From Clostridia bacterium (GTDB taxonomy: Bacteria > Bacillota > Clostridia > Oscillospirales > CAG-272), in contig JAFTNU010000053.1 in assembly GCA_017451735.1 (NCBI GenBank), forward strand, positions 1-51,573: DNA of 51,573 nt, read 5' to 3'. A program made the translations under genes and the position numbers. This document shows positions 13,131 to 31,354 of the stretch, one piece after another. Within the stretch, counting starts at the first letter, position 1; each line of letters starts with the position of its first letter. The notes beneath the pieces were generated by a model that saw nothing but the letters and a program-made list of their open reading frames with translations, searched no databases and was not told the DNA's origin.

Positions 13131-14198
13131 ATGAAAAGACGTTTGTTTGCCATCTTATTGGCACTTCTGCTCGTTTCGGGCAGTCTCACCGCCTGCGGCG
13201 GTCGAGGCAACGCGGACGTGCACGTATTTTATTACACCTTCAGTGACACCTATGTTTCCTCGGTACGCAGTACCCTTGACAGTCAGCTGACCGCCGCAGG
13301 TCTTTCCTATCAAGACTATGACGGAAACGGCAACCAGACCACCCAGACCGAGCAGATCCGCACCGCCATCACAAAGGGCGCCCGTGCTCTTCTGGTGAAT
13401 ATCGTCAACACCGGCTCGGATGATGCGGCCAACGAGATCGTAGGGCTGGCACGGGATGCGGGGATCTCTCTGATCTTTTTTAACCGCGAGGTCAGTGACA
13501 GTGTGATCTCAAGCTATGATAACTGCGCCTTTGTGGGCACCCGCGCCGAGGAGGCAGGGCTGCTGCAGGGCGAAATGGTCGGTGAATATCTGTTGGAGCA
13601 CTACAGCGATATCGACCTGAACAACGACGGTGTGATCTCTTATATTCTTTTCAAAGGCGAAGAGGGCAACAATGAGGCAATCTACCGCACCAAGTACAGC
13701 GTGGAAAAGGCAAACGAGCTTCTGATGGCGGCAGGAAAAAAGCCTCTGCGCTTCTATGACACCTCCAACAGCAACGGCTATCTGGTCGACCAGAACGGAC
13801 AGTGGTCCTCCGCCGCCGCCAATGATTATATGAATACCGTTCTCGCCTCTCACAACACGACCAACGGTAATATGGTCGAGCTGGTCATCTGCAACAACGA
13901 CAGCATGGCCGAGGGAGCTGTTTCGGCTCTGAATGCGGCAGGCTACAACAAGGGGGGTACCTCCACGACCATCCCCGTTTTCGGTGTAGATGCCACCGAG
14001 GCGGCCAAAACGCTGATCAAGGACGGCAAGATGGTGGGTACGGTGCAGCAGGATGCCACCGGTATGGCACAGGCACTTTCCCTTCTGACCGCCAACGCTT
14101 TGGATGATACCAAAACCCTGATGGACGGCACGGGCGACATGGCAGTGGACGAAAATGTCAGAAAGATCCGTATCCCCTATGCAAAATATTTTGGTTAA
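13131..14198 (+). CDS. mglB: Galactose-type ABC transporter substrate-binding lipoprotein
   Basis: A periplasmic-binding-protein-like lipoprotein of 355 aa. A lysine/arginine start and hydrophobic stretch lead to the lipobox LTAC with Cys22, so it is anchored outside the membrane. The calcium-binding loop DLNNDGVISY is characteristic of galactose/glucose-binding MglB and rare in ribose-type relatives. The segments NNDSMAEGAVSAL and GVDATEAAKTLIKDGKMVGTV are ligand-cleft blocks. It is the first gene of mglBAC and overlaps the start of mglA by 20 nt. Galactose, glucose or methyl-galactoside is the likely ligand. Confidence 0.88.
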   Translation: MKRRLFAILLALLLVSGSLTACGGRGNADVHVFYYTFSDTYVSSVRSTLDSQLTAAGLSYQDYDGNGNQTTQTEQIRTAITKGARALLVNIVNTGSDDAANEIVGLARDAGISLIFFNREVSDSVISSYDNCAFVGTRAEEAGLLQGEMVGEYLLEHYSDIDLNNDGVISYILFKGEEGNNEAIYRTKYSVEKANELLMAAGKKPLRFYDTSNSNGYLVDQNGQWSSAAANDYMNTVLASHNTTNGNMVELVICNNDSMAEGAVSALNAAGYNKGGTSTTIPVFGVDATEAAKTLIKDGKMVGTVQQDATGMAQALSLLTANALDDTKTLMDGTGDMAVDENVRKIRIPYAKYFG

Positions 14199-15699
14199 CG
14201 AGCACGAAAAGCGTCCCCTGCTCCAGATGCGCGGCATCGTCAAGGAGTTCCCCGGTGTACGGGCACTGGATCGGGTGGATCTGACCGTCCGCGCAGGCAC
14301 CGTTCACGCCCTGATGGGCGAGAACGGTGCGGGAAAATCCACCTTGATGAAATGCTTGTTCGGCATTTATGAGAAGGATGCGGGTGAGATCTTATTCGAA
14401 GGGGAGCCGGTAGAATTCAAAAACCCCCGACACGCTCTGGATAAGGGGGTGGCCATGGTGCACCAGGAGCTGAACCAAGCCCTCAAGCGCAGTGTGATGG
14501 ATAACATCTGGCTGGGCCGTTATCCCACCCGCTTTGGCTTTACCTCCGAACGGCAAATGGAGCAAAAAACCAGAGACGTATTTAAGGATCTCGGACTATC
14601 CATCGATCCAAAGCGCATCATGGGCACCATGTCGGTGGCCCAGCGGCAGATGGCCGAGATCGCCAAAGCGGTCTCTTACAACGCCCGCATCATCGTACTG
14701 GACGAGCCCACCTCGTCTCTCACGGAGGAGGAGGTGGGGCACCTCTTTCGCATCATCCGTACCCTGCGGGAACGTGGGTGCGGCATCATTTATATCTCCC
14801 ACAAAATGGAGGAGATCCTGCAGATCTCCGATGAGATCACCGTCATGCGTGACGGCACTCACGTTATCACCGAGCCCGCCGCCAACATGACCATGGAAAA
14901 GATCATCCGACTGATGGTGGGGCGGGAGCTTTCCAACCGTTTCCCGCCCAAGATCTCCACCCCCGGGGAAACGATATTCGAAACCCGAGGACTCACCTCC
15001 CGCTATGCCAAGGTCAAGGATGTCTCCATCGAGGTGCGCAAGGGCGAGATCGTGGGGCTTGCAGGACTTGCGGGGGCGGGACGAAGCGAGCTGCTGGAAA
15101 ATATTTTCGGTATTTCGGCCCGGGAATCGGGAGAACTGTATCTTGGCGGTAAGCGGATCTATAACCGCACACCCCGTGAGGCCATTCGGAACGGCTTTGC
15201 CTTTCTCACCGAGGAGCGGCGTGCCACCGGCATCTTCGGCATTCTCAACATCACCGAGAATACCACCATCACGGCACTGCGCAAATATCGCAGGTGGAGA
15301 CTGCTCCTCTCCGATCGTGCCCGCCGTATGGATACCGACAAGATGATCGGGCGACTGGCAGTCAAGACCGCCTCGCGGGATACCCAGATCCGCACTCTTT
15401 CGGGGGGAAATCAGCAAAAGGTGATTCTTTCCCGCTGGTTGCTCACCACTCCCTCCATCCTGCTTTTGGACGAGCCCACCCGCGGCATCGATGTGGGTGC
15501 CAAATACGAAATCTACCAACTCATGGAAGAACTGGCGGCCGACGGCAAGTCGATTCTGATGGTTTCGGGCGAGTTACCCGAGCTCCTGGGTGTGTGTCAC
15601 CGCATTTACGTCATGTCCGGGGGCGAGATCACCGGCGTGGTCAATGCCGCCGATACCACCCAGGAGGAGATCATGACCCTTGCCGCCAAAAACGTGTAG
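14179..15699 (+). CDS. mglA: Galactose-type ABC transporter ATP-binding protein
   Basis: A sugar ABC ATPase of 506 aa with two fused nucleotide-binding domains. The first has Walker A GENGAGKST and Walker B IIVLDEPTSSL. The second has the degenerate Walker A GLAGAGRSE normal in MglA/RbsA/XylG, signature LSGGNQQ and Walker B LLLDEPTRGID. ATG 14179 is used, inside the mglB end; the next in-frame start is TTG 14191. The overlap implies translational coupling. It powers import through MglC. Confidence 0.92.
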   Translation: MQNILVNEHEKRPLLQMRGIVKEFPGVRALDRVDLTVRAGTVHALMGENGAGKSTLMKCLFGIYEKDAGEILFEGEPVEFKNPRHALDKGVAMVHQELNQALKRSVMDNIWLGRYPTRFGFTSERQMEQKTRDVFKDLGLSIDPKRIMGTMSVAQRQMAEIAKAVSYNARIIVLDEPTSSLTEEEVGHLFRIIRTLRERGCGIIYISHKMEEILQISDEITVMRDGTHVITEPAANMTMEKIIRLMVGRELSNRFPPKISTPGETIFETRGLTSRYAKVKDVSIEVRKGEIVGLAGLAGAGRSELLENIFGISARESGELYLGGKRIYNRTPREAIRNGFAFLTEERRATGIFGILNITENTTITALRKYRRWRLLLSDRARRMDTDKMIGRLAVKTASRDTQIRTLSGGNQQKVILSRWLLTTPSILLLDEPTRGIDVGAKYEIYQLMEELAADGKSILMVSGELPELLGVCHRIYVMSGGEITGVVNAADTTQEEIMTLAAKNV

Positions 15700-15738
15700 G
15701 GACGTGGGCAGTTTTTCGATACAAAGGAGTCTTTCCAA

Positions 15739-16794
15739 ATGAAAATCAAAGTCATAGAAAAGTTCAAGGCCATGGAGGGACGGGAACGAAAGGCCTATCT
15801 CAGCGAATTGCTCATTAACAATTCCCTTTATATCTTTCTTATCGCCACCATCATTCTCATCCAGTGTCTCAATCCCCGCTTTCTCTCCTGGCCCTCCATC
15901 ATCAATATCATTTCGCTCTCCGCCGCCAACCTGCCCATTGCCTTAGGGATAGCGGGTGCCATTATTCTCACCGGCACCGACCTTTCGGCAGGACGTATCG
16001 TGGGACTTGTGGCCTGTGTCTCGGCGGCACTGTTGCAAAGCAGCAACTATGCGGGAAAAATGTTTCCAAATCTTGATACGTTGCCCATTTTTGTGGTCTT
16101 TCTCATCGCCATTGCCATTGGTGCGCTAGTGGGCGCCATCAACGGCTTTTGCACCGCGACCTTTCATTTGCATCCCTTTATTGTAACGCTTTCCACTCAG
16201 CTCATTGCTTACGGTGCTCTGCTTCTGTTTCTCATGATCGGCAACAACAACGGGCAATCGCTTTCGGGGCTTGATCCCACCTACACCAACTTCATTAAGG
16301 GCAGTGCCATTTCCCTTGGCGGCACGCCGATCCCCAACTATGTTTGGTATGTGCTGGTCATTACGGCTATCATGTGGGTGGTGTGGAACAAGACCACCTT
16401 CGGAAAAAACATGTTTGCCGTGGGCTCCAATCCCGATGCCGCCAACGTATCGGGCGTCAACGTCAAGCGCGTGATCATTCTGGTCTTTATGCTGGCAGGT
16501 CTGCTTTACGGTGTTACAGGCTTTATCGAGGCGGCACGCATCGGTTCCAACTCGGCGGCTACGGGTCTTAACTATGAGCTGGACGCCATTGCCGCCTGCG
16601 TCATCGGGGGCGTCTCTTTTGTGGGCGGTACCGGCAAGATCGGCGGCGTGATCTTAGGCGTAGTGCTGTTGCGTCTGATCTTTGTGGGCCTCACCTTTCT
16701 TGGTATCGACGCCAACATGCAATATATCATCAAGGGCCTCATCATCCTCATTGCCTGCGCCATTGATATGCGCAAATATCTGGTTCGCCGCTGA
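15739..16794 (+). CDS. mglC: Galactose-type ABC transporter permease
   Basis: A membrane permease of 351 aa with about ten hydrophobic segments, of the BPD_transp_2 family (MglC/RbsC). Typical blocks are GTDLSAGRIVGLVA, TTFGKNMFAVGSNPDAANVSG and CVIGGVSFVGGTGKIGG. AAAGGAG precedes ATG 15739. It lies 39 bp after mglA and completes the transporter. The next gene, of the agmatine pathway, starts only 21 bp after its stop, with no terminator between. Confidence 0.92.
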   Translation: MKIKVIEKFKAMEGRERKAYLSELLINNSLYIFLIATIILIQCLNPRFLSWPSIINIISLSAANLPIALGIAGAIILTGTDLSAGRIVGLVACVSAALLQSSNYAGKMFPNLDTLPIFVVFLIAIAIGALVGAINGFCTATFHLHPFIVTLSTQLIAYGALLLFLMIGNNNGQSLSGLDPTYTNFIKGSAISLGGTPIPNYVWYVLVITAIMWVVWNKTTFGKNMFAVGSNPDAANVSGVNVKRVIILVFMLAGLLYGVTGFIEAARIGSNSAATGLNYELDAIAACVIGGVSFVGGTGKIGGVILGVVLLRLIFVGLTFLGIDANMQYIIKGLIILIACAIDMRKYLVRR

Positions 16795-16815
16795 GTGGAC
16801 CCAAAGGAGTTAATT

Positions 16816-17826
16816 ATGAAAGTAAAAGATCTCATTACCACCGAGGACTATACCAAAGAAGAGCTGCTTGACATCATCGAGCTGTCCCTGACACTCAAAA
16901 AATGCGTCAAGCAGGGGTACTATCCCCCCTTGCTCAAAAACCGCACCTTAGGCATGATCTTCGAGCAAAGCTCTACCCGCACCCGTGTTTCCTTTGAGAC
17001 TGCCATGGAGCAGCTGGGCGGCCATGCCCAGTATTTGGCCCCGGGACAGATACAATTGGGCGGACACGAGACCATGGAGGATACCGCCCGCGTTCTCTCC
17101 CGCCTGGTAGACATCGTCATGGCCCGCGTGGACGCGCACGCCACCGTGGCAAATCTTGCCCGTACCGCCGCCATCCCCGTGATCAACGGCATGTCCGACT
17201 ATAATCACCCCACACAGGAGCTGGGCGATGCCATCACCATGTTTGAGCATCTGCCCGACGGGAAATATATCGAGGACTGCAAGATCGTTTTCGTGGGTGA
17301 CGCCACCCAGGTCTGCGCCTCGACCATGATGATGACCACAAAGCTGGGGATGCAGTTCGTTCATTTCGGCCCCGAGGGGCATCAGCTCTCTGCCGAGATG
17401 CAACGCATCGGCCAGGAAAACTGCCGCATTTCGGGCGGTAGCATCACCGTTACCGACAATGAGGATGAGGCATTGGCCGACGCCGATTTTGTATACACTG
17501 ATGTGTGGTACGGTCTTTACAACGCAGAGCTTTCCAAGGAAGAGCGTCATGCCATCTTTATGCCGAAATATCAGGTGGATAACGACATGATGTCGAAGGC
17601 CGCCCCCCATGTCAAGTTTCTGCACTGTCTGCCCGCCACCCGCGGTGAGGAGGTCCTGGACGAGGTTTTGGACGGCCCTGCCTCCATTGCTTTCGATCAG
17701 GCAGAAAACCGTCTTTCCGCCATGCGCGGCATCCTTGTCTATCTGTTACGTGACCGTATTTCCGAGGAGATCCGTCACGGGGCGGCAAAAGCGGCGCTTT
17801 TAGCCGATTTGTTTGAAATTTTATAA
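16816..17826 (+). CDS. ptcA: Putrescine carbamoyltransferase
   Basis: A carbamoyltransferase of 336 aa. SSTRTR binds carbamoyl phosphate, NHPTQ (in [10 protein letters not shown]) and HCLPA are family blocks. The [10 protein letters not shown] segment in place of the ornithine carbamoyltransferase version, and the neighbours, point to putrescine carbamoyltransferase, which releases putrescine and carbamoyl phosphate from N-carbamoylputrescine. ATG 16816 follows AAAGGAGT; the ORF could begin 21 nt earlier, but without a site. It leads the order carbamoyltransferase, antiporter, agmatine deiminase, carbamate kinase. Ornithine carbamoyltransferase is the alternative by sequence alone. Confidence 0.85.
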
Positions 17827-17841
17827 ACGGGGGCGTTTTTT

Positions 17842-19233
17842 ATGAACCAAAAGGCAAAAAAATTCCGCCTGTTTGACGCGGTACTGGCGGCGGTCTGCAT
17901 CGTGCTGGTGGTCGAATCCTCGGCCCCCGCCGCCGCCATCGGCAACGCTCAGTTCTTCTGGTGGATCTTTCTGCTCATCGGCTTCTTTCTCCCCTACGGG
18001 CTCATCTCCGCCGAGCTGGGCACCACGTATGAGGGTGAGGGCGGCATATACGACTGGGTGGAGCGCGCCTTCGGCAAGCGCTGGGGCAGCCGTGTGGCGT
18101 GGTACTATTATATCAACTTTTCCCTGTGGATGGGATCCCTTGCCGTACTCTTTACCGACATCATCAGTACCCTGACGGGTAGAGGAATGTCCGTTTGGCT
18201 CTCTCTTTTGTTGCAGCTGGCCTTTATCTGGATCGTGGTACTCATGAGCAACTATAAGATCAGTGAAAGCAAGTGGATTCTGAATATCGCCGCCATTCTC
18301 AAGGCCTTTCTGATGCTGACCATCGGCGGGCTTGGTATCTACGTGGCGATCACAAGAGGCTCGGCAAACGCATTCACCCCCGCCTCCTTCCTGCCCTCCT
18401 TTACCTCGGGCGGACTCTCTTACGTGTCGGTCATCATGTTTAATTTTCTCGGCTTTGAGGTGGTAACCACCTTTGCCTCCGAGATGCAGAATCCCCGCCG
18501 CGAGATCCCCCGCGCCATCGTTCTGGGCGGTGTGATCATTGCCTTCTTCTATCTGCTTTCTGCCTTCGGCATCGGCGTGGCAGTTCCTGCCGACGAGCTT
18601 TCGGCGTCGGGCGGTATTTTGGACAGCTTCCATCTGTTGCTTGGCGGAAACGGCGGTATTTTCCTTACCGTTGTGGGGTTAATTTTCCTTTATACCTTGG
18701 TGGCAAACCTGCTTTCCTGGTCGCTGGGTGTTAACAATGTGGCGTGCTACGCCGCCGAGCGCAACGCGCTCCCCTCCTTTCTTGGCAAGCGGGATTCCCG
18801 CGGCATGCCCGTGGGTGCCAACCTGACCAACGGCATCATCGCCTCGGCGATCGTGCTGATCGCGCCCTTCATCCCAAGCGAGGACGTGTTCTGGAGCTTC
18901 TTTGCACTGAATATGATCACACTTTTGCTCTCCTACGTGATGCTGTTCCCCGCATTTCTGAAGCTGCGGCGCACAGAGCCCGATATCGAGCGTCCCTTCC
19001 GCGTGGGCGGCGGTAAAATTCGCCTTACGCTGATGACCTACGTGCCCATGATCCTGCTGATCTTGGCCATCGTCTTCAGCATTATCCCCATGAACGGGGC
19101 CGAAATCCCCGAGAAAATGCCTCTGCTCATCGGCACACTGATTGCCGTGGCCATCGGTGAGATCATTGCGACGGGTGCCGCTGGCAAAAAGGGACGGCAA
19201 AACAGACCAAGGCGCATCACTGAAAGCGAATAA
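17842..19233 (+). CDS. aguD: Agmatine/putrescine antiporter, APC family
   Basis: An amino acid-polyamine-organocation transporter of 463 aa with about twelve hydrophobic segments. The start has the APC-type helix 1 block [13 protein letters not shown], and [16 protein letters not shown] matches helix 6. The position between putrescine carbamoyltransferase and agmatine deiminase genes, 15 and 14 bp away, indicates exchange of external agmatine for internal putrescine across the cytoplasmic membrane. The substrate is inferred from context; the transporter family is clear. Confidence 0.82.
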
Positions 19234-19247
19234 AAAGAGGTAACGGT

Positions 19248-20345
19248 ATGAAAAGATTGCAAGGAACGCCCCGCATCGACGGTTTTCGGATGCCCGGGGA
19301 ATTTGAGCCCCATCGGGGCACCTATATGATCTGGCCCGAGCGTCCCGACAACTGGCGTTTGGGCGCCAAGCCCGCCCAGCGGGTCTTTGCCGAGGTGGCG
19401 ACCGCCATCGCGGCATTTGAGCCGATCACGGTCTGCGTCAGCGGCAACCAATTTGCCAACGCACGGCAGATGTTACCCCCCGAGGTGCGGGTGGTGGAAA
19501 TGTCCAATAACGATGCCTGGGTGCGGGACTGTGGACCCACTTTTGTGACAAACGGTCATGAAATTCGCGGTATCGACTGGCGCTTCAACGCCTGGGGCGG
19601 TCTTGTGGACGGTCTCTACTTTCCCTGGGACAAGGATGACGCCGTAGCGCAGAAGATCTGCGAGCTGGAGGGCGCCGACAGCTATCGCACCGGCGGCTTT
19701 GTGCTGGAGGGTGGCTCAATCCACACCGACGGTGACGGCACCGCGGTGGTCACCGAGGAATGTCTGCTCAGCGAAGGGCGCAATCCTCATTTTTCCAAGG
19801 AGCAGATCGAGCAATTGCTCTGCGATTATCTGAATGTGGAAAAAGTCATCTGGCTCAAGCGCGGCATCTATCTGGATGAGACCAACGGTCATGTAGACAA
19901 TATCTTTACCTTTGCCCGCCCCGGGGAGGCGCTGCTTGCCTGGTGCGAAGATGAAAGCGACCCCCAATATGAGATCAGCGCCGAGAATCTGAAAATTTTG
20001 GAGAACGAGACCGATGCCAAGGGCAGACAGATCAAGGTGCACAAGCTGGTGCTCCCCTCCCCCGTGCTCATCACCGAGGAGGAAAGCGGCGGCGTGGACG
20101 CCATCGAGGGCACGCTCCCCCGCAACGAGGGCGACCGCCTGGCCGCCTCCTACGCCAACTTCTATCTGGTCAACGGCGGCGTGATCTTCCCGCTGTTTGG
20201 TGACAAAAATGACGAGCGTGCACGGGAAACGCTGGAAAAGGTCTTTCCCGACCGGCAGGTGGTGGGGATCTACGCCCGCGAGATCTTGCTGGGAGGCGGC
20301 AATATCCACTGTATCACTCAGCAAATCCCCTGTGAGGCGAACTGA
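19248..20345 (+). CDS. aguA: Agmatine deiminase
   Basis: A 365-aa agmatine deiminase of the guanidine-modifying fold; it converts agmatine to N-carbamoylputrescine and ammonia. All catalytic parts are visible: [11 protein letters not shown], the acidic residue in [10 protein letters not shown], histidine in ETNGHVDN and nucleophile cysteine in [13 protein letters not shown] near the C-terminus. Length is normal. It overlaps the carbamate kinase start by one base (TGATG), so translation is coupled. Confidence 0.95.
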
Positions 20346-21337
20346 TGGAGCCCCGCATCGTCATTGCCCTTGGAGGGAACGCTTTGGGCAAGACTCCCGA
20401 AGAGCAGAAGGCACGCATCGATGAAGTGTCGGGCGCTTTGGTAGGACTGATCGAGAAGGGTTATGAGATCATCGTGACCCACGGCAACGGCCCCCAGGTG
20501 GGAATGATCCGCTTGGCCTTCGGTGCAGGTGCGACGGCCGATCCCCATGTGCCCTCCATGCCCCTTGCCGAATGCACCGCCATGAGCGAAGGCTATATCG
20601 GCTACCATTTACAGACGGGGATCTTACGGGAGCTGCGCCGTCGGGGCATGCCCTGGGAGGTGGCCACACTGGTCACACAAGTGGAGGTAGACCCCGCCGA
20701 CAGGGCCTTTCGGGAACCTACCAAGCCGATCGGCGCCTTCTACACTGCGGATGAGGTGGAGCTTCTGCGTGAGAAGGAGCCCGACGCGGTATTTGCCGCC
20801 GACGCCGGGCGCGGCTATCGCCGTATGGTGGCCAGTCCGAAGCCCAAGCACATCGTGGAGATCCGATCGATCAAAAATTTGCTGGATAACGAATTTGTGG
20901 TCATCGCCTGCGGGGGCGGTGGTATCCCCGTGGTACGTCGAAGCGAAGGCGACTATATCGGGGTGGAGGCGGTGATCGACAAGGATCTTGCCGCAGAAAA
21001 GCTGGCGGAGGAAGTAGGGGCCGATCACCTCTTTATTCTGACGGCAGTAGAGCGAGTGGCTCTGCACTTCGGCACGCCTGAGCAAAAGGAGCTTTCCGCT
21101 ATGACTGTCACCGAGGCGGAGCAATATTGCCGCGAGGGGCATTTTGCCCCCGGCAGTATGCTCCCCAAGGTGCAGGCGGCAATGGCCTTTGCCAGAAGTG
21201 CACCCGGGCGACGTGCGGTCATCTGCTCACTTGAAAAAGCGCCCTTAGCCATTGACGGTCGCTCGGGTACCGTGGTCGTAGGCGATGCGGTGCCCACCAT
21301 GGCAGACAGGGACGCACGGAGTTATAGTGAAAAATAA
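20345..21337 (+). CDS. arcC: Carbamate kinase
   Basis: A 330-aa amino acid kinase-family enzyme that makes ATP from carbamoyl phosphate, releasing ammonia and carbon dioxide. ALGGNALG, VTHGNGPQVG, ACGGGGIPVV and DKDLAAEKLAEEVGAD are carbamate kinase blocks. It ends the agmatine pathway and gives the net ATP. It is slightly longer than the usual 310 aa at the C-terminus. A perfect 18-bp terminator begins at its stop codon. Confidence 0.93.
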   Translation: MEPRIVIALGGNALGKTPEEQKARIDEVSGALVGLIEKGYEIIVTHGNGPQVGMIRLAFGAGATADPHVPSMPLAECTAMSEGYIGYHLQTGILRELRRRGMPWEVATLVTQVEVDPADRAFREPTKPIGAFYTADEVELLREKEPDAVFAADAGRGYRRMVASPKPKHIVEIRSIKNLLDNEFVVIACGGGGIPVVRRSEGDYIGVEAVIDKDLAAEKLAEEVGADHLFILTAVERVALHFGTPEQKELSAMTVTEAEQYCREGHFAPGSMLPKVQAAMAFARSAPGRRAVICSLEKAPLAIDGRSGTVVVGDAVPTMADRDARSYSEK

Positions 21338-21369
21338 GAAAAGCGGTCAATACCGCTTTTCTTATTTTT
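21330..21369 (+). terminator. Terminator of the agmatine operon
   Basis: AAAAATAAGAAAAGCGGT (21330-21347) and its exact complement (21352-21369) around CAAT, ending in TTTTT. It is the first terminator seen after mglB. Confidence 0.95.
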
Positions 21370-21549: not shown

Positions 21550-23412
21550 ATGAAAGATATTCTGCGCGCGGCAGTAGCCGTGCCCGCCCTGAAGGTAGCG
21601 GATATTTCCTATAATAAAAATGCCATACTGGAGCGCATGAAGGAGGCTCATGAAGCAGGGGCCGCCTTGCTGGTCACCCCCGAGCTGTCGCTGACGGGTG
21701 CTACCTGCGGCGATCTGTTTTTCTCCGATCTGTTGCTGGAGCAGACGCTCATTGCTCTGCACCGGTTGGCAGAAGCCTCCCCTAAGGACATGCTCACCCT
21801 GGTAGGTGCACCGATCAAGGCAAGCGGGCGCGTTTACAACTGTGCCTGCCTGATTGGTGACGGAGACATTCAAGCCATTGTTGCGAAATGCCATCTCACC
21901 GTTGCCGAGCAACGCTATTTTGCCTCCGGTGCGGATATCGCGGAGGGCGGTGTCTACACTGCCGATGGGATTCCCCTTTACGGCACCTTGAATTTTGAAA
22001 CCGCTGACGGTACCACACTGTCCATTGCCATCGGTCGGGATCTGTCGGACAAGCAGACGGATGCCGAGGTCATTCTGAATCCCGCCGCCGGAAATGCCAT
22101 GGTGGGGGCCGGAGAGCGCCGCAGGCGCGCCGTACTGGAGCAGTCTGCCAGAGACATGGCCGCCTGCCTCTCGGTCAACGCAGGTGAGCAGGAATCCGCC
22201 TCGGATCTGATCTATTCCGGCCACGGCATGATCGCCATGAACGGCAAGCTGATCGCCGAAAATAAGAATTACACCGACAGTGACTACATGATGATCTCCG
22301 ACCTGGATCTGGGAACCATTCGCTACGACCGTCGCAAGGCTCCTGCATGCGACCGCACCGAGGCGCTCTGCCTCCCTGTGTCGCTTCCCGCTTCCGACGG
22401 TGCGCTCCTCAAGATCAGACGCCTGCCCTTCATTCCCGATGAAAAGAAGGCCCGCACCGAGCGTTGCATGGAAATTTTCGAGATGCAAGCCGCGGCCCTT
22501 TCCCGCCGTCTTTCGATCACAGGGGGCAAGCTGACCCTGGGTATATCGGGCGGTCTGGATTCCACCCTCGCTCTTTTGGTGGCCATCCGCGCCATGGAAA
22601 AGCTGAAGCTCCCCCGCACCAACATCACTGCGGTGACCATGCCCTGCTTCGGCACCTCTGACGAGACCCTTGCCAATGCGTTAACGCTCATGCAGAATCT
22701 TGGCGTGACCTCCCGCACGGTCTCGATCAAGGAGGCTGTGCTTCAACACTTCAAGGACATCGGTCACGACCCGACGGATTATTCCGTAACCTATGAAAAT
22801 GCACAGGCGCGCGAGCGCACCCAGGTACTGATGGACATTGCCAATCAGGTGGGGGGCATCGTGCTTGGCACGGGCGACCTCTCGGAAATGGCCCTTGGCT
22901 GGTGCACCTACAACGGCGACCATATGAGCATGTACGGCGTCAACGCCGATGTCCCCAAGACTCTGGTTCGCTGGATCGTGACAAGCATTGCCGAAAGCGA
23001 CCTGCTGCCCGAGGCAAGTGAGGTGCTGCTGCGGGTGGTGGATACCCCCATTAGTCCCGAGCTTTTGCCCCCCGATGCGGTGGGCAAGATCGCCCAGAAA
23101 ACCGAGGATATCGTGGGTCCTTACGCCCTGCACGACTTCTTCCTCTACTGGGCCGTGCGCTATCAGTATACCCCCTCCAAGATCTTTGCCCTGGCCCAAA
23201 AAGCCTTTGACGGCATTTTTGACGGTGCCACCATCAAGAAATGGCTGACCGTCTTCTGGCGCCGATTCTTCAACCAGCAGTTCAAGCGCAACTGCGTTCC
23301 CGACGGTGTGAAGGTGGGCTCTGTCGGCCTTTCGCCCCGCGGCGATTGGCAGATGCCCTCCGATGCATCCTGTGCCCTGTGGCTTGCCGAGATCGAGACC
23401 ATCGAGCCATGA
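21550..23412 (+). CDS. nadE: NAD synthetase with degenerate glutaminase domain
   Basis: A two-domain NAD+ synthetase of 620 aa. Residues 1-270 are a nitrilase-type glutaminase domain and residues 320-610 the synthetase domain, with P-loop SGGLDS near 333, LGTGDLSEMALGWCTY and SVGLSPRGDWQMP. The synthetase converts deamido-NAD, ATP and ammonia to NAD. In the glutaminase triad, Glu45 (TPELSLTG) and Lys113 (AKCHL) remain. The nucleophile cysteine, expected in the ICEDLW-type block, is Gly162 in IAIGRDLSD (codon GGT, 22033-22035). Glutamine hydrolysis should be lost, leaving ammonia as the nitrogen source. ATG 21550 is chosen because GGAGG (21538-21542) is 7 nt upstream; ATG 21544 is too close. 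Confidence 0.92.
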   Translation: MKDILRAAVAVPALKVADISYNKNAILERMKEAHEAGAALLVTPELSLTGATCGDLFFSDLLLEQTLIALHRLAEASPKDMLTLVGAPIKASGRVYNCACLIGDGDIQAIVAKCHLTVAEQRYFASGADIAEGGVYTADGIPLYGTLNFETADGTTLSIAIGRDLSDKQTDAEVILNPAAGNAMVGAGERRRRAVLEQSARDMAACLSVNAGEQESASDLIYSGHGMIAMNGKLIAENKNYTDSDYMMISDLDLGTIRYDRRKAPACDRTEALCLPVSLPASDGALLKIRRLPFIPDEKKARTERCMEIFEMQAAALSRRLSITGGKLTLGISGGLDSTLALLVAIRAMEKLKLPRTNITAVTMPCFGTSDETLANALTLMQNLGVTSRTVSIKEAVLQHFKDIGHDPTDYSVTYENAQARERTQVLMDIANQVGGIVLGTGDLSEMALGWCTYNGDHMSMYGVNADVPKTLVRWIVTSIAESDLLPEASEVLLRVVDTPISPELLPPDAVGKIAQKTEDIVGPYALHDFFLYWAVRYQYTPSKIFALAQKAFDGIFDGATIKKWLTVFWRRFFNQQFKRNCVPDGVKVGSVGLSPRGDWQMPSDASCALWLAEIETIEP

Positions 23413-26992: not shown

Positions 26993-29900
26993 TCAGGTCT
27001 GATCGTCACCGATGTCGTCGTTGTCCTCGCCGGGGGTGGGAACGGGAGCAGGTGTCTCGGGCTCCTCAAACCCTTCGGCGTATGCATTCAACACCTCTAC
27101 GACCTCGTCGTTAAGCCCCGCCACAAAGGTCTCGTCGGCCAGGAGGTAATATGCGGCCTCCTGAAGAGACACGGCATCCTCGACGTCATAGTCGGCGTAG
27201 TAGATGTACGTAACGGTCTGCTCGGTGTCGCCCACATTGTCACCGTCGGTGTCTACCTTAATGGTACAGGTAGCCTTGAAGTAACCGACTGCCACAAAGG
27301 CGCGATCCCAATTTTCCTCCAGAATAGAGGTGATCGCCGCGGTATAAGAGACCGTATCCTCGCCGTCATTCGCATCATACTTTGTGGCCACAACGTCCAG
27401 ATACTTCAAGCCTGCCGCATCAAGTGTTGCATGGTCAAAGCTTGCGCCCTCACCCAAGCGCTCCAGATAATCCACGGGAACGATCAGCGTACCGAATTCC
27501 TGGGCACCCTCAGATACGATATCACCAGAAATATTGCCTTCAAACCATTTCTCAAGCTCATTGAGGTTCATGGTAGTGGTAAAGCTCAGACCGCCGGCAT
27601 AAACATTCTTGGTCTCATTGGCCTTTCCGGTCTCGAGCTCAACCTTCTCCAGCCGGAGAGCGGCCTTCTCGGTATAGCCCTTTACGGTAATCTCGCGCTC
27701 CTCACCATAGGTGTAGACGTGGTAAGTGGCATTCTCCAGAGTCACGACCAGATCGGTGGACTTCACAGGAATCTCCTCGGGATCGGTAATCCCCTTCATG
27801 GCGCCGTTGCTCTGGAAGTAATACTTCTGGTTCTCCCCTGCCAGGAAGGTACCGCCCGTGATGGTGACCACAGAGGCAGGATTGACCTTGTTGATTATGC
27901 GCTCGCCGATCAGGCTGTTGCTGATAAAGGTACCGCCCGTAATGTTGAGCCAACCATAGGAGCTTCCACCACCCGCACGGATGACCGCATCCTCGATGGT
28001 GTTGGCAGCATTGGCACTGCGGATCTCGTTCTTATCCAGAACAAACAGACCGCCGTTGATGTTAAGAACCGCATCGGATTCCTTGGTGATGGTAAACTGG
28101 GTAATATCGGAGAGAGCACTGCTACAGGTACCGCCGTAAGGACGTGCCACGCAAACGCCCTTGGAGTAGAAGTAACCGGCATTGATGGTCAACGTGCCGC
28201 CCGCAACACTGATGCAGGCGTCTACATTTTCATTATACATGTAAAAGCTGCCGCCATTGATGGTATAGGTACCCTTCAGACCTGCGCTCATGTAGATCAC
28301 ATAGTTGGTCACGCCCAGAGGCTTGATAAAGGTGCCGCCCGTAATGGTCATCTTGGCGCCCTCCCCTGCCTGGGTCAGGTATAGGACGGGATCGGTGCTG
28401 TTGTTTGCGATAAAGGTACCGCCCTCGATGGTGATCTGTACATCACCGCTTGTGCTGACCTCCATCACAGACTGCTTATCGTTGAGGAAGCTACCGCCCT
28501 TGATGGTCAGCACCTGTGCAGCGGAGGAAGAGAAATTAATAATATCGGAGCCGATATTGACATAGAAAACGCCATCGTGAATGGTAAAGGGATGTGTGCC
28601 GCCGTCAAACTTGATCAGACGGGAGGAGTTATCCTGATAGAAATAACCGTCGTAGATGTTGAGTGCAGTGTTGCCCTTGTTGGCATAGATCACGTTACTG
28701 GCACCCCAGTTAAGGTACTTGCCGCCGTAAACATTCAGCGTGCCGTCATCGCTGCTCACATTGAAGATCTGGTTGGAGCTGCGCAGATTGACCACAGGGC
28801 CGTTAGAGACCTCGGCATCCACACCGTCGGCCGTTTCCTGAGTGCCGGCAACACCCATGGTGATGGTCGATTTGGCACCCACGGAGCAGAAGTTGCCCTT
28901 GACCTCAAAGCTACCGCCGGTCACGGTCAGGTTTAAGCCCTCGCCGGAGGCAAAGACACCGCCGGCCGCACTGAAGCTACCACCCGTGACGGTGATCTTC
29001 TCATTCTTACCGGTGGCGAACATAGCACCGGTGCCCGAGGCCACAAACTCACCGTCCGTAATGGTCAGATCCATCACGCAGGCATCATCGGTACCGATGT
29101 TGAACATCGGCTTGCTTCCTTGGAAGGTAAGGCTACCATCGTTGATGATGATTTTGGTACCTTCGGCACATTGGGTCACGCAGAAGAGGCCATCTGTGTC
29201 ATTTGCGGCACAAAGCTCGCCGCCGTTGATGGTGATCCGGGGGGTTCCGGTGGTCTCGAGATTCATCACGGACTGTACGGTACTCTGATTGGTAAAGCTA
29301 CCGCCCTCGATGGTCAGATCCACCGAAGTGGAGCCGTCCAGCGAGAACACATCGCTGGCATCCAAGGTATTGACAAAGTTGCCGCCGTAGAAGGTCACCG
29401 CATAGGTGCCATCCGAGAAATTGAACATGCGGGAGCCGCCAACCTGGGTAAAGCTACCGCCGTAAACATCAACGGTACCGCTGCCCTTGCCCAGATAAAT
29501 GCAGTTGTTACCTGCATTTTGGGTGATATGACCGCCATAAACGATCAGTTTCCAGTCGGTAGAGGCATCGTTATCATTGGGGAAGATGTTACCGCCCCAA
29601 GAAACCAATGTGGGGCCTACATCCGAGCCCTCGTCCTCACCGATGATGATGGTGCCGTTTGCTACCTTAGAATACATCATACCGGCCTTGGCGTATCCGT
29701 AACCGCTGACAAAGTTGATCGCAGAGCCCGCAACGCTCAGCACAAGCAGGGAGGATTTGGTATTGACCAGACCCAGATCCTCTACACGCAAGCAACCGCC
29801 GGCCACATACATCAAGGGGCCGGAAACGGTGGCAGTCATCGTATAATAGCCATCCACCGCGGAACTGTTGAGAGTGATCACCGAGCTGTTGGGTCTGTAA

Positions 29901-31270
29901 CGGGAGGCCAGAGACGAGTCGATGCTCACGGTGGTATTCTTGGTCAGGGTCAATGTGCCGCCGTTGCCCACATGATAGAGGGCACGCTCCAGCTCAAAGC
30001 TATAGTAATAGGTAGGCTCGGGATCCTGCCCGTTGGTCACACGCCAGGTTGCGCCCTCGGCAATATAACCGTTCGCCTCCAGGTAATCTTGGTCATAAAC
30101 CACGGACTGGCAGTAGGAGAAGCCCATTTTCTCCACATCCGCAATGGCGGTGGTAGCGGGACGGCGGGTCGGGTTTGTATATGTATCGGTCACCACTTGA
30201 TAAGGTGCGTCGATCTTCATACCGTAGTGCAGGGCCAGGCCTGCGGCGGTGGTAAACGTACCCGACATGGTCTTGTTCTCGATCATGGGGGCGTTATCGC
30301 TCTCAGGCTCATCCACATAGTAGTTGGAGTAGAACTGACCGCCCCAGATGCGGTAATAGCCAACAGTCACATCCTCATAACCCAACACAGAGGTGGAATC
30401 GCCGGGGTTATAGAAGATACCGCCCAGGATCGTAACATAACCGGCACCATTCACGGCATTCAGTACGGTGTTGGCATCACCTGCCACGGCAAACTCACCG
30501 TCTACGATCACCGCATGACCGTTCGCACCCACTGCGACAGCACTGCCGCCGTCGTTGGAATAGAAGGCACCGCCGTACACGGTAACGGTGGAACCGGTCG
30601 TATCCGACGCTCCTTGGATATCCAGAACGTGATCGGAGGACTCGTAGTAGCCGCCGTAAATATCGACAAAGCCGCCGGCACAAGCCACGGCATGGGAAAC
30701 GCCGTAAACACAGCAGTCGATCAAAGTCACCGCCGCACTGTCGGCAGTGCCGTCTCCACTTACGCTGATGCCGATGTCGCCAAGCTTGACATCAACCGAA
30801 AGATTCACGATCGTGATATCGGTGCTCTTCCCCACTACGTTCATCCAGGGAGAAGCATTCTTCCCTGCCTCGGTAGTCAAGGTCTTGCCGTTGCCATCCA
30901 GCGTCCAGGATCCTCTCAGAGTCACGGGGGAGCTGAGCGTGATGTCCTCCAGCAGCGTCACGGTGCCGCCCTCGGGAACAAGGGATACGGCAAGAGCAAG
31001 ATCGTCCACGATCACCGTATTGACGGGACCGGTCACCTCGATCTTGGTGCCCTCTTCAACACCGTCGGGCAATTCGATGGACTCCGAACCTCCTCCGATG
31101 TCGGGACTATACACACCCCCACCGGACGTTCCGCCGCCGATAACGGAGGATACGTCCCCGCCTCCAACGGTGCCCGAAGTCGTCTCGGAGGTCATGGCTG
31201 AGAGCACGGTGGCAGGCACAAGCACGACCACCATCATAGTCGCCAATAACAATGCAAGCAATTTCTTCAT
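26993..31270 (-). CDS. Large secreted beta-helix-type repeat protein
   Basis: A secreted protein of 1425 aa. ATG 31270 (MKKLLALLLATMMV) starts a clear signal peptide; the reading could extend 26 codons upstream without a signal. Residues 60-1200 contain about 23 copies of a strand-turn unit of the form (V/I)T(V/I)xGGxF, for example VTGGSFSAAGG, IEGGSFTNQST and ITGGTFIKPLG, spaced mostly 25-45 residues. This predicts a right-handed beta-helix as in pectate lyase-like adhesins. The last 200 residues are a separate domain shared with the other large protein at 32444-35590. It ends in an acidic proline-rich tail with no LPXTG or S-layer motif, so how it is retained is unknown. Function unknown; adhesion or glycan binding are guesses. 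Confidence 0.8.
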   Translation of the reverse strand: MKKLLALLLATMMVVVLVPATVLSAMTSETTSGTVGGGDVSSVIGGGTSGGGVYSPDIGGGSESIELPDGVEEGTKIEVTGPVNTVIVDDLALAVSLVPEGGTVTLLEDITLSSPVTLRGSWTLDGNGKTLTTEAGKNASPWMNVVGKSTDITIVNLSVDVKLGDIGISVSGDGTADSAAVTLIDCCVYGVSHAVACAGGFVDIYGGYYESSDHVLDIQGASDTTGSTVTVYGGAFYSNDGGSAVAVGANGHAVIVDGEFAVAGDANTVLNAVNGAGYVTILGGIFYNPGDSTSVLGYEDVTVGYYRIWGGQFYSNYYVDEPESDNAPMIENKTMSGTFTTAAGLALHYGMKIDAPYQVVTDTYTNPTRRPATTAIADVEKMGFSYCQSVVYDQDYLEANGYIAEGATWRVTNGQDPEPTYYYSFELERALYHVGNGGTLTLTKNTTVSIDSSLASRYRPNSSVITLNSSAVDGYYTMTATVSGPLMYVAGGCLRVEDLGLVNTKSSLLVLSVAGSAINFVSGYGYAKAGMMYSKVANGTIIIGEDEGSDVGPTLVSWGGNIFPNDNDASTDWKLIVYGGHITQNAGNNCIYLGKGSGTVDVYGGSFTQVGGSRMFNFSDGTYAVTFYGGNFVNTLDASDVFSLDGSTSVDLTIEGGSFTNQSTVQSVMNLETTGTPRITINGGELCAANDTDGLFCVTQCAEGTKIIINDGSLTFQGSKPMFNIGTDDACVMDLTITDGEFVASGTGAMFATGKNEKITVTGGSFSAAGGVFASGEGLNLTVTGGSFEVKGNFCSVGAKSTITMGVAGTQETADGVDAEVSNGPVVNLRSSNQIFNVSSDDGTLNVYGGKYLNWGASNVIYANKGNTALNIYDGYFYQDNSSRLIKFDGGTHPFTIHDGVFYVNIGSDIINFSSSAAQVLTIKGGSFLNDKQSVMEVSTSGDVQITIEGGTFIANNSTDPVLYLTQAGEGAKMTITGGTFIKPLGVTNYVIYMSAGLKGTYTINGGSFYMYNENVDACISVAGGTLTINAGYFYSKGVCVARPYGGTCSSALSDITQFTITKESDAVLNINGGLFVLDKNEIRSANAANTIEDAVIRAGGGSSYGWLNITGGTFISNSLIGERIINKVNPASVVTITGGTFLAGENQKYYFQSNGAMKGITDPEEIPVKSTDLVVTLENATYHVYTYGEEREITVKGYTEKAALRLEKVELETGKANETKNVYAGGLSFTTTMNLNELEKWFEGNISGDIVSEGAQEFGTLIVPVDYLERLGEGASFDHATLDAAGLKYLDVVATKYDANDGEDTVSYTAAITSILEENWDRAFVAVGYFKATCTIKVDTDGDNVGDTEQTVTYIYYADYDVEDAVSLQEAAYYLLADETFVAGLNDEVVEVLNAYAEGFEEPETPAPVPTPGEDNDDIGDDQT

Positions 31271-31354
31271 GGTACTTCTCCTTTTCGGTGAAATATCTTG
31301 GGGGAGACGATGGCCATTCGCCCCTCCCGGGGAAAGCGAGCGTTTCATAAGTTA

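Follow-up and report, generated by a model that had tools for sequence, protein, structure and literature searches.

The question raised by this locus is how a two-domain NAD synthetase that lacks the catalytic cysteine of its glutaminase domain makes NAD, and why that domain is kept. The window, as we call the whole stretch of 51,573 nucleotides analyzed here, carries nadE on its forward strand (21550..23412), running from an ATG at 21550 to a TGA at 23410-23412 without interruption and preceded by GGAGG just 5' of the start. In one account of the family, an NAD synthetase has either two domains or a single one, the latter form working alone or with a glutaminase as a distinct subunit, and the spread of these forms is explained by transfer and gene loss (PMC3376133, excerpt). 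The 620-aa product of the window gene matches NCBIfam NF002730 over residues 3-618 (688.6 bits; cut-off 473), Pfam PF00795 (CN_hydrolase) over residues 7-258 (34.8 bits; cut-off 23.2), and Pfam PF02540 (NAD_synthase; 93.7 bits). Its nearest solved structures are those of Mycobacterium tuberculosis NadE (3dla; phmmer E 4.1e-102). The glutaminase-like domain spans about residues 1-280 and the synthetase domain about residues 300-620; detection of the CN_hydrolase domain sets the protein apart from single-domain NadE, which has no glutaminase domain. By these matches, the product is an NAD synthetase of the same type as that of M. tuberculosis, with both domains present in full.

An earlier sequence-only reading of this DNA had proposed that Gly162 replaces the catalytic cysteine while Glu45 and Lys113 of the triad are retained, and the alignments bear out both statements. 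The phmmer alignment places the window motif IAIGRD on VEICED of 3dla, so that Gly162 (GGT, 22033..22035, forward strand) occupies the position of M. tuberculosis Cys176 (residues of this enzyme are prefixed tb below), and the two residues again share one column when the tb sequence is added to our multiple alignment. Glu45 (GAG, 21682..21684) and Lys113 (AAA, 21886..21888), both on the forward strand, stand in the columns of tb Glu52 and tb Lys121, which are retained in 22/22 and 21/22, respectively, of the aligned sequences without the cysteine (Cys-less rows). The segment after Lys113, previously described only as atypical, proved to contain a deletion of four residues of the YRE loop, with tb Tyr127-Phe130 absent between Val118 and Ala119 (21901..21906, forward strand). 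In characterized enzymes, the YRE loop is in contact with glutamine, constitutes the main tunnel bottleneck, and signals to the synthetase site (PMC6946656, excerpt). Further along the forward strand, Arg163 (22036..22038) stands at the position of tb Glu177, which touches the glutamine site and whose human counterpart acts as a gate, and Ala51 (21700..21702) at that of tb Tyr58, a part of constriction 1 of the ammonia tunnel (PMC6946656, excerpt). Window Glu120 is aligned with tb Glu132, but this placement borders the loop deletion.

Alignment with the characterized enzyme and with relatives revealed no substitute cysteine shared by the Cys-less rows in any glutaminase-domain column. In 19 columns, Cys is confined to Cys-less rows and occurs in one to three of the 22; one such column is that of window Cys206, where L007 and L022 also have Cys. 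At the tb 78 and tb 151 columns, Cys is commoner among Cys-less rows, yet it also occurs in Cys-bearing congeners. With no Cys-less-only column exceeding 3/22 rows, no other shared cysteine was found to serve as the nucleophile, although one specific to the window protein is conceivable. A sequencing or assembly error was rejected, as was chance, because 10/19 full-length copies in the genus have Gly at this position through varied codons, other species of the genus among them. Loop and pocket residues are altered together with the nucleophile in Cys-less rows. A general loss of nucleophiles in the window's genome bin was also ruled out, since the Cys motif is present in all six class I amidotransferases found there; three of the six sit on contig C63, which is discussed below.

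The genus sample comprised 21 genomes, 19 of which contained a full-length NadE, with Gly at the nucleophile position in 10 (the window's included) and Cys in nine. Outside the genus, Cys-less forms amounted to 1/11 relatives (11 of the 16 full-length matches outside the genus), 3/79 loci, 8/104 proteins from the order (24 loci and 80 further matches taken roughly by rank, with many listed matches left out, four with an internal stop among them), and 0/24 further proteins from the phylum. Over all samples, which lean to proteins most similar to the window NadE and are no random draw, 22 of 237 two-domain NadE rows (235 of them distinct) lack the cysteine, 21 having Gly and one Ser. The serine, encoded by TCT in L171 (G073), is the sole non-Gly replacement seen. 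Before the count, L038 and L254 were removed as duplicates of L009 and L155, respectively, and the identical pairs still among the 237 (L076/L145 and L251/L252) all have Cys.

A synthetase-domain tree of 213 rows, made with a quick method and no bootstrap, requires at least 15 changes of state, or 11 when starred (well-supported) branches alone are counted, and distributes the 22 Cys-less rows over 16 groups; a more careful tree of 42 rows gives eight changes, at least six of them forced. Within the genus, four changes are needed by the synthetase tree and four by the glutaminase tree, from which the pocket columns were omitted and in which the starred branches alone force only two. Neither domain is compatible with a single Cys-less clade in the genus (p-AU 8e-7 and 4.9e-5), and the two domain trees rule out both one ancestral loss and the spread of one dead domain by recombination within the genus. 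Although change counts do not tell loss from gain, we read the changes as losses because regain of the nucleophile is unlikely. Judged by these trees, the nucleophile has been lost repeatedly, and in the same way, among related bacteria.

The near uniformity of the replacement calls for its own explanation. The codons at this position in the 22 Cys-less rows are GGC (10), GGT (7), GGA (3), GGG (1), and TCT (1, Ser), and the varying third base argues that Gly has been held through synonymous change. All 191 Cys codons are TGC or TGT, and a single base change in these can yield any of six other residues. The probability of at least 15 Gly in 16 groups is 3e-11 if six replacements are equally likely and 8e-7 at a one-in-three chance, both values being rough, as the 16 groups were taken as independent and may not all be. 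In nitrilase-like proteins, the nucleophile caps a tight elbow and adopts an unfavorable conformation (PMC4812014, excerpt), and most likely Gly is almost universal because, once catalysis is gone, it would ease the strain at this elbow.

Of the glutaminase-domain columns, 45 are conserved in 93% or more of Cys-bearing rows, and 13 of these are retained in fewer than 70% of Cys-less rows, namely tb Tyr58, Asn105, Pro125, Glu129, Glu174, Cys176, Glu177, Phe180, Pro185, Asn199, Ser201, Arg209, and Leu216, of which Tyr58, Glu129, Cys176, Glu177, and Phe180 are active-site, gate, or tunnel residues (PMC6946656, excerpt). The other 32, Glu52 and Lys121 included, are retained. The window protein keeps 31/45 of these columns, and the median is 34 in Cys-less rows versus 45 in Cys-bearing rows. 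As for the order of changes, seven of the nine Cys-bearing congeners already lack three or four of seven scored glutamine-site and loop positions, whereas in L133 and L165 the nucleophile is Gly and six of the seven remain intact. An intermediate, L010 (G005), keeps the cysteine (ICAD) with the YRE loop deleted in the same way as in the window protein, and clusters with the window's clade in trees. Since both Cys-retaining proteins of the L010 type and the otherwise nearly intact L133 and L165 exist, the cysteine may go first or late.

The synthetase half presents a different picture. The SGGLDS motif (22546..22563, forward strand), which we take to be a synthetase motif, is present, and the window protein keeps 124/126 conserved columns of this half, one of the two altered being that of tb Arg658, occupied by Gln601 (23350..23352, forward strand); the previous description of this half as intact thus stands. 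Cys-less rows keep a median of 123/126 such columns versus 125 in Cys-bearing rows, and only three columns, tb Leu486, Asp656, and Arg658, presumably placed at the tunnel, are retained in fewer than 70% of Cys-less rows. Median omega (pairwise dN/dS, rough values because synonymous distances are large and pairs overlap) was 0.21 for the dead domain in nine chosen Cys-less pairs versus 0.10 in 16 Cys-bearing pairs, and 0.06 versus 0.05, respectively, for the synthetase half. The dead glutaminase domain thus evolves faster and is relaxed, yet it remains under purifying selection.

In 18 of the 22 genomes with a Cys-less form, no other NadE was found over the family cut-off (G001, G002, G004, G008, G013, G015, G017, G019, G055, the genomes of L052, L104, and L116, and six more), several of these genomes being incomplete and the eight genus members among them only 78-88% complete. 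The exceptions, each with another NadE gene or fragment, are the window's bin (G000), G006 (a sub-threshold fragment of 51 bits), and G076 and G281 (a second NadE over the cut-off). If a cell has no NadE besides the Cys-less protein, this protein must make NAD, and ammonia would be the remaining nitrogen donor. Two-domain NAD synthetases do take free ammonia (PMC6946656, excerpt), and the human NADSYN1 variant C175Y shows near-complete loss of activity with glutamine and, according to the discussion of the report, near wild-type activity with ammonia, whereas its results describe all variants as significantly reduced with excess ammonia (PMC10866660, excerpt). The state of the sequence, its recurrence, the pattern of losses, the purifying selection, and the lack of another NadE over the cut-off in most of these genomes are direct observations. 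Together with the human Cys175 variant, the repeated losses and the 18 genomes favor the earlier view of an ammonia-dependent enzyme whose dead domain is kept for structure. We consider it quite probable, from sequence comparison, that the window NadE is an ammonia-only NAD synthetase with a pseudo-glutaminase retained as a scaffold.

In such an enzyme, the synthetase half would adenylate deamido-NAD with ATP, and free ammonia would attack the adenylate. The nitrilase-like half, having no cysteine, could form no glutamyl thioester, and the YRE loop and other glutamine-site residues are gone; this half would be retained because the protein depends on its fold and interface to stay together. Ammonia use, the scaffold role, and strain relief are the parts of this explanation that we infer. 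Beyond the lowered ammonia activity described for the human variants, the other NadE genes or fragments of four genomes, and the incompleteness of several of the 18, two facts count against it. Retention of Glu52 and Lys121 exceeds the obvious need of a bare scaffold. Furthermore, the human enzyme has a high Km for ammonia, 42 mM (PMC6946656, excerpt), and cells would therefore need much ammonia or an adapted enzyme.

A search of the bin for a separate nadE, which the sequence-only reading had called for, yielded a single-domain NadE of 247 aa on contig C63 (L273, L274), whose membership in the genome is doubtful. The same contig encodes a full-length GMP synthetase (GuaA) and putative PyrG and CarA. 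The gene beside its nadE, a putative LL-diaminopimelate aminotransferase, is no more than 29% identical to its matches in other genomes of the genus. The GuaA of C63 has one full-length match there, at 61% identity, in G010, a genome that contains the short form (see below) as well; a 34-residue GuaA piece in G006 is 71% identical to the C63 protein. The short GuaA typical of the genus is also present in the window's bin, in pieces on contigs C39 and C36. Gene content thus suggests that C63 is a contaminant. Its tetranucleotide profile matches the window at 0.85 (first 20-kb piece) and 0.78 (second 9-kb piece), compared with 0.83 between two pieces of the window itself, and since its base composition fits, it is possibly a lineage-specific acquisition.

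The neighborhood of nadE bears on a possible ammonia source. Upstream on the forward strand lie genes for an mglBAC-like sugar ABC transporter (13131..16794; all three below the Mgl cut-offs) and an agmatine block, comprising putrescine carbamoyltransferase, an antiporter-like permease, agmatine deiminase, and carbamate kinase (16795..21337), which we judge to lie outside the mechanism. Between carbamate kinase and nadE, a terminator-like hairpin of 18 pairs (21330..21369, forward strand; -24.6 kcal/mol, z -8.8) was identified, the search finding one such hairpin versus 0.7 expected in shuffles. An mglC-like gene occurs near nadE in 16/19 loci, nearly all of which have mglA- and mglB-like genes farther out (names at other loci being taken from the window's copies); in 12 of the 16, no other shared gene lies closer to nadE. 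The agmatine block lies between the mglC-like gene and nadE in three genus genomes (G000, G005, and G013), and G016 has one carbamoyltransferase-like gene there. On the reverse strand of the window, 26993-31348 encodes a 1451-aa protein with a signal-like start by reading and no Pfam match at 1e-5, members of whose cluster are found near nadE in 12/19 genomes.

Proximity of the agmatine block had led to the speculation that the agmatine pathway serves NadE as a local ammonia source. This pathway frees ammonia at two steps, and the block does adjoin nadE in three genomes of the genus. However, the terminator-like hairpin separates the two units, the mglC-like gene is the more usual nearest neighbor, and agmatine deiminase was found in only 4/21 genus genomes, all counts here being from incomplete genomes: it was present in two of the 10 with Cys-less NadE and not found in the other eight. 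Moreover, one of the three adjacent cases, G005 (L010), keeps its cysteine. Given the hairpin, the rarity of the deiminase, and the G005 cysteine, we dropped the agmatine link, which is almost certainly wrong, and hairpin, rare deiminase, and neighborhood rule it out as a general explanation. It is very improbable, too, that nadE is decaying because its function has passed to a single-domain NadE encoded elsewhere in the genome: although the 247-aa protein on C63 and the second NadE of G076 and G281 would fit such a takeover, the synthetase half is the best-kept part of the protein by both omega and conserved columns, in most genomes that carry a Cys-less protein nothing else scores as NadE above the cut-off, and C63 may be foreign, though its composition matches. 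Scarcely more attractive is the idea that another protein provides the glutaminase activity in trans, or that some other residue of the domain acts as nucleophile, which we regard as highly unlikely. Two-subunit NAD synthetases exist in other bacteria (PMC3376133, excerpt), and the window protein has Cys114 adjoining Lys113 as well as Cys206; but the latter is shared by only three Cys-less rows, as many as any Cys-less-only cysteine column reaches, the recurrent neighbors of nadE are sugar-transporter genes and two kinds of large protein, and the dead domain would still fill the docking place of a partner.

A more elaborate alternative holds that the glutaminase pocket now serves as an inlet for ammonia: the Cys-to-Gly change, the replacement of Tyr58, and the loss of the YRE loop would have stripped side chains from constriction 1, easing the passage of free ammonia into the old tunnel, with Glu52 and Lys121 left to handle ammonium. 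Residues assigned to constriction 1 are indeed among those lost, namely tb Tyr58, tb Phe130, and the positions equivalent to human Cys175 and Glu176 (PMC6946656, excerpt). Where Tyr58 is lost, in 14 Cys-less rows, it is replaced by small residues only (Ala in nine, Ser in four, Cys in one), the Glu177 and Phe180 positions drift widely, and Glu52 (22/22), Lys121 (21/22), and the tunnel-end Asp497 (22/22) are retained. Nevertheless, a buried Glu-Lys ion pair would explain this retention without a new function, Tyr58 is kept in 8/22 rows and the loop is full length in several, Glu132, another constriction-1 residue, is kept in 16/22 by alignment, and the rows share ancestry, so that 14 losses of Tyr58 are not 14 events. 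The columns of tb Leu486, Asp656, and Arg658, to which we ascribe a place at the tunnel, are eroding as well. We therefore think the inlet rather unlikely, and we remain doubtful, to much the same degree, about its broader version, in which repeated, convergent Cys-to-Gly replacement and gate removal in Clostridia and relatives would open an ammonia inlet, in the window's genus as part of a wider shift to ammonia that includes GuaA.

Other amidotransferases of the genus bear on this broader version. In 20/21 genomes, counting the pieces in the window's bin, GuaA matches the synthetase half only. The short copies examined are about 335 residues long (for example, L288 4933-5937, L292 4916-5929, and L293 4935-5939, with more among L283-L302), and NCBIfam still labels them glutamine-hydrolyzing. 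A search of 20 loci around the gene, reaching up to about 5 kb on either side and some of them cut by contig ends, revealed no GuaA-type glutaminase domain. In 75% of G020, a 1.53-Mb congener (L303-L360) whose NadE retains Cys, no match was obtained for CarA, PyrG, TrpG, HisH, or PdxT, and the same part contains a 1230-aa frame that is PurL-like by motifs. The short GuaA and the absences in G020 would fit a lineage moving to direct ammonia use; the traces of full-length GuaA in G010 and G006 lower the odds of this wider reading.

Returning to the ammonia-only enzyme with a scaffold domain, no report of a naturally nucleophile-less two-domain NadE was found among the open-licence PMC matches listed, subscription papers lying outside that scope. 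Our comparison suggests a further state of the family, in which two-domain NadE would have gone back to ammonia many times with the domain retained. If this holds, architecture alone would misassign the nitrogen donor in 22/237 rows. The Cys-bearing, Cys-less, and intermediate members of one genus offer a natural series for the order in which glutamine use is lost, and this series also bears on the possible conversion of a dead glutaminase pocket into an entry for ammonia.

Among known systems, human carbamoyl phosphate synthetase 1 has a glutaminase-like domain without its nucleophile, uses ammonia, and keeps the dead domain; it differs from NadE in belonging to an unrelated glutaminase class and in having undergone, as far as is known, one old loss, not many. 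The window protein resembles the octameric M. tuberculosis NadE (3dla, NF002730) in its two full-length domains, intact synthetase half, and retained Glu and Lys, but, unlike that enzyme, it lacks the nucleophile, the YRE loop, and other glutamine-site residues and is predicted not to use glutamine. In its predicted restriction to ammonia, it is like the single-domain NadE of the Escherichia coli type (PMC3376133, excerpt); in contrast to these proteins, which have no glutaminase domain, it keeps about 280 residues of one, and the two-domain model scores best. A further parallel concerns the same position, changed in human NADSYN1 C175Y, in which glutamine use is nearly lost and ammonia use kept (PMC10866660, excerpt); whereas this disease allele differs by one change only, the bacterial proteins have additional changes and almost always Gly.
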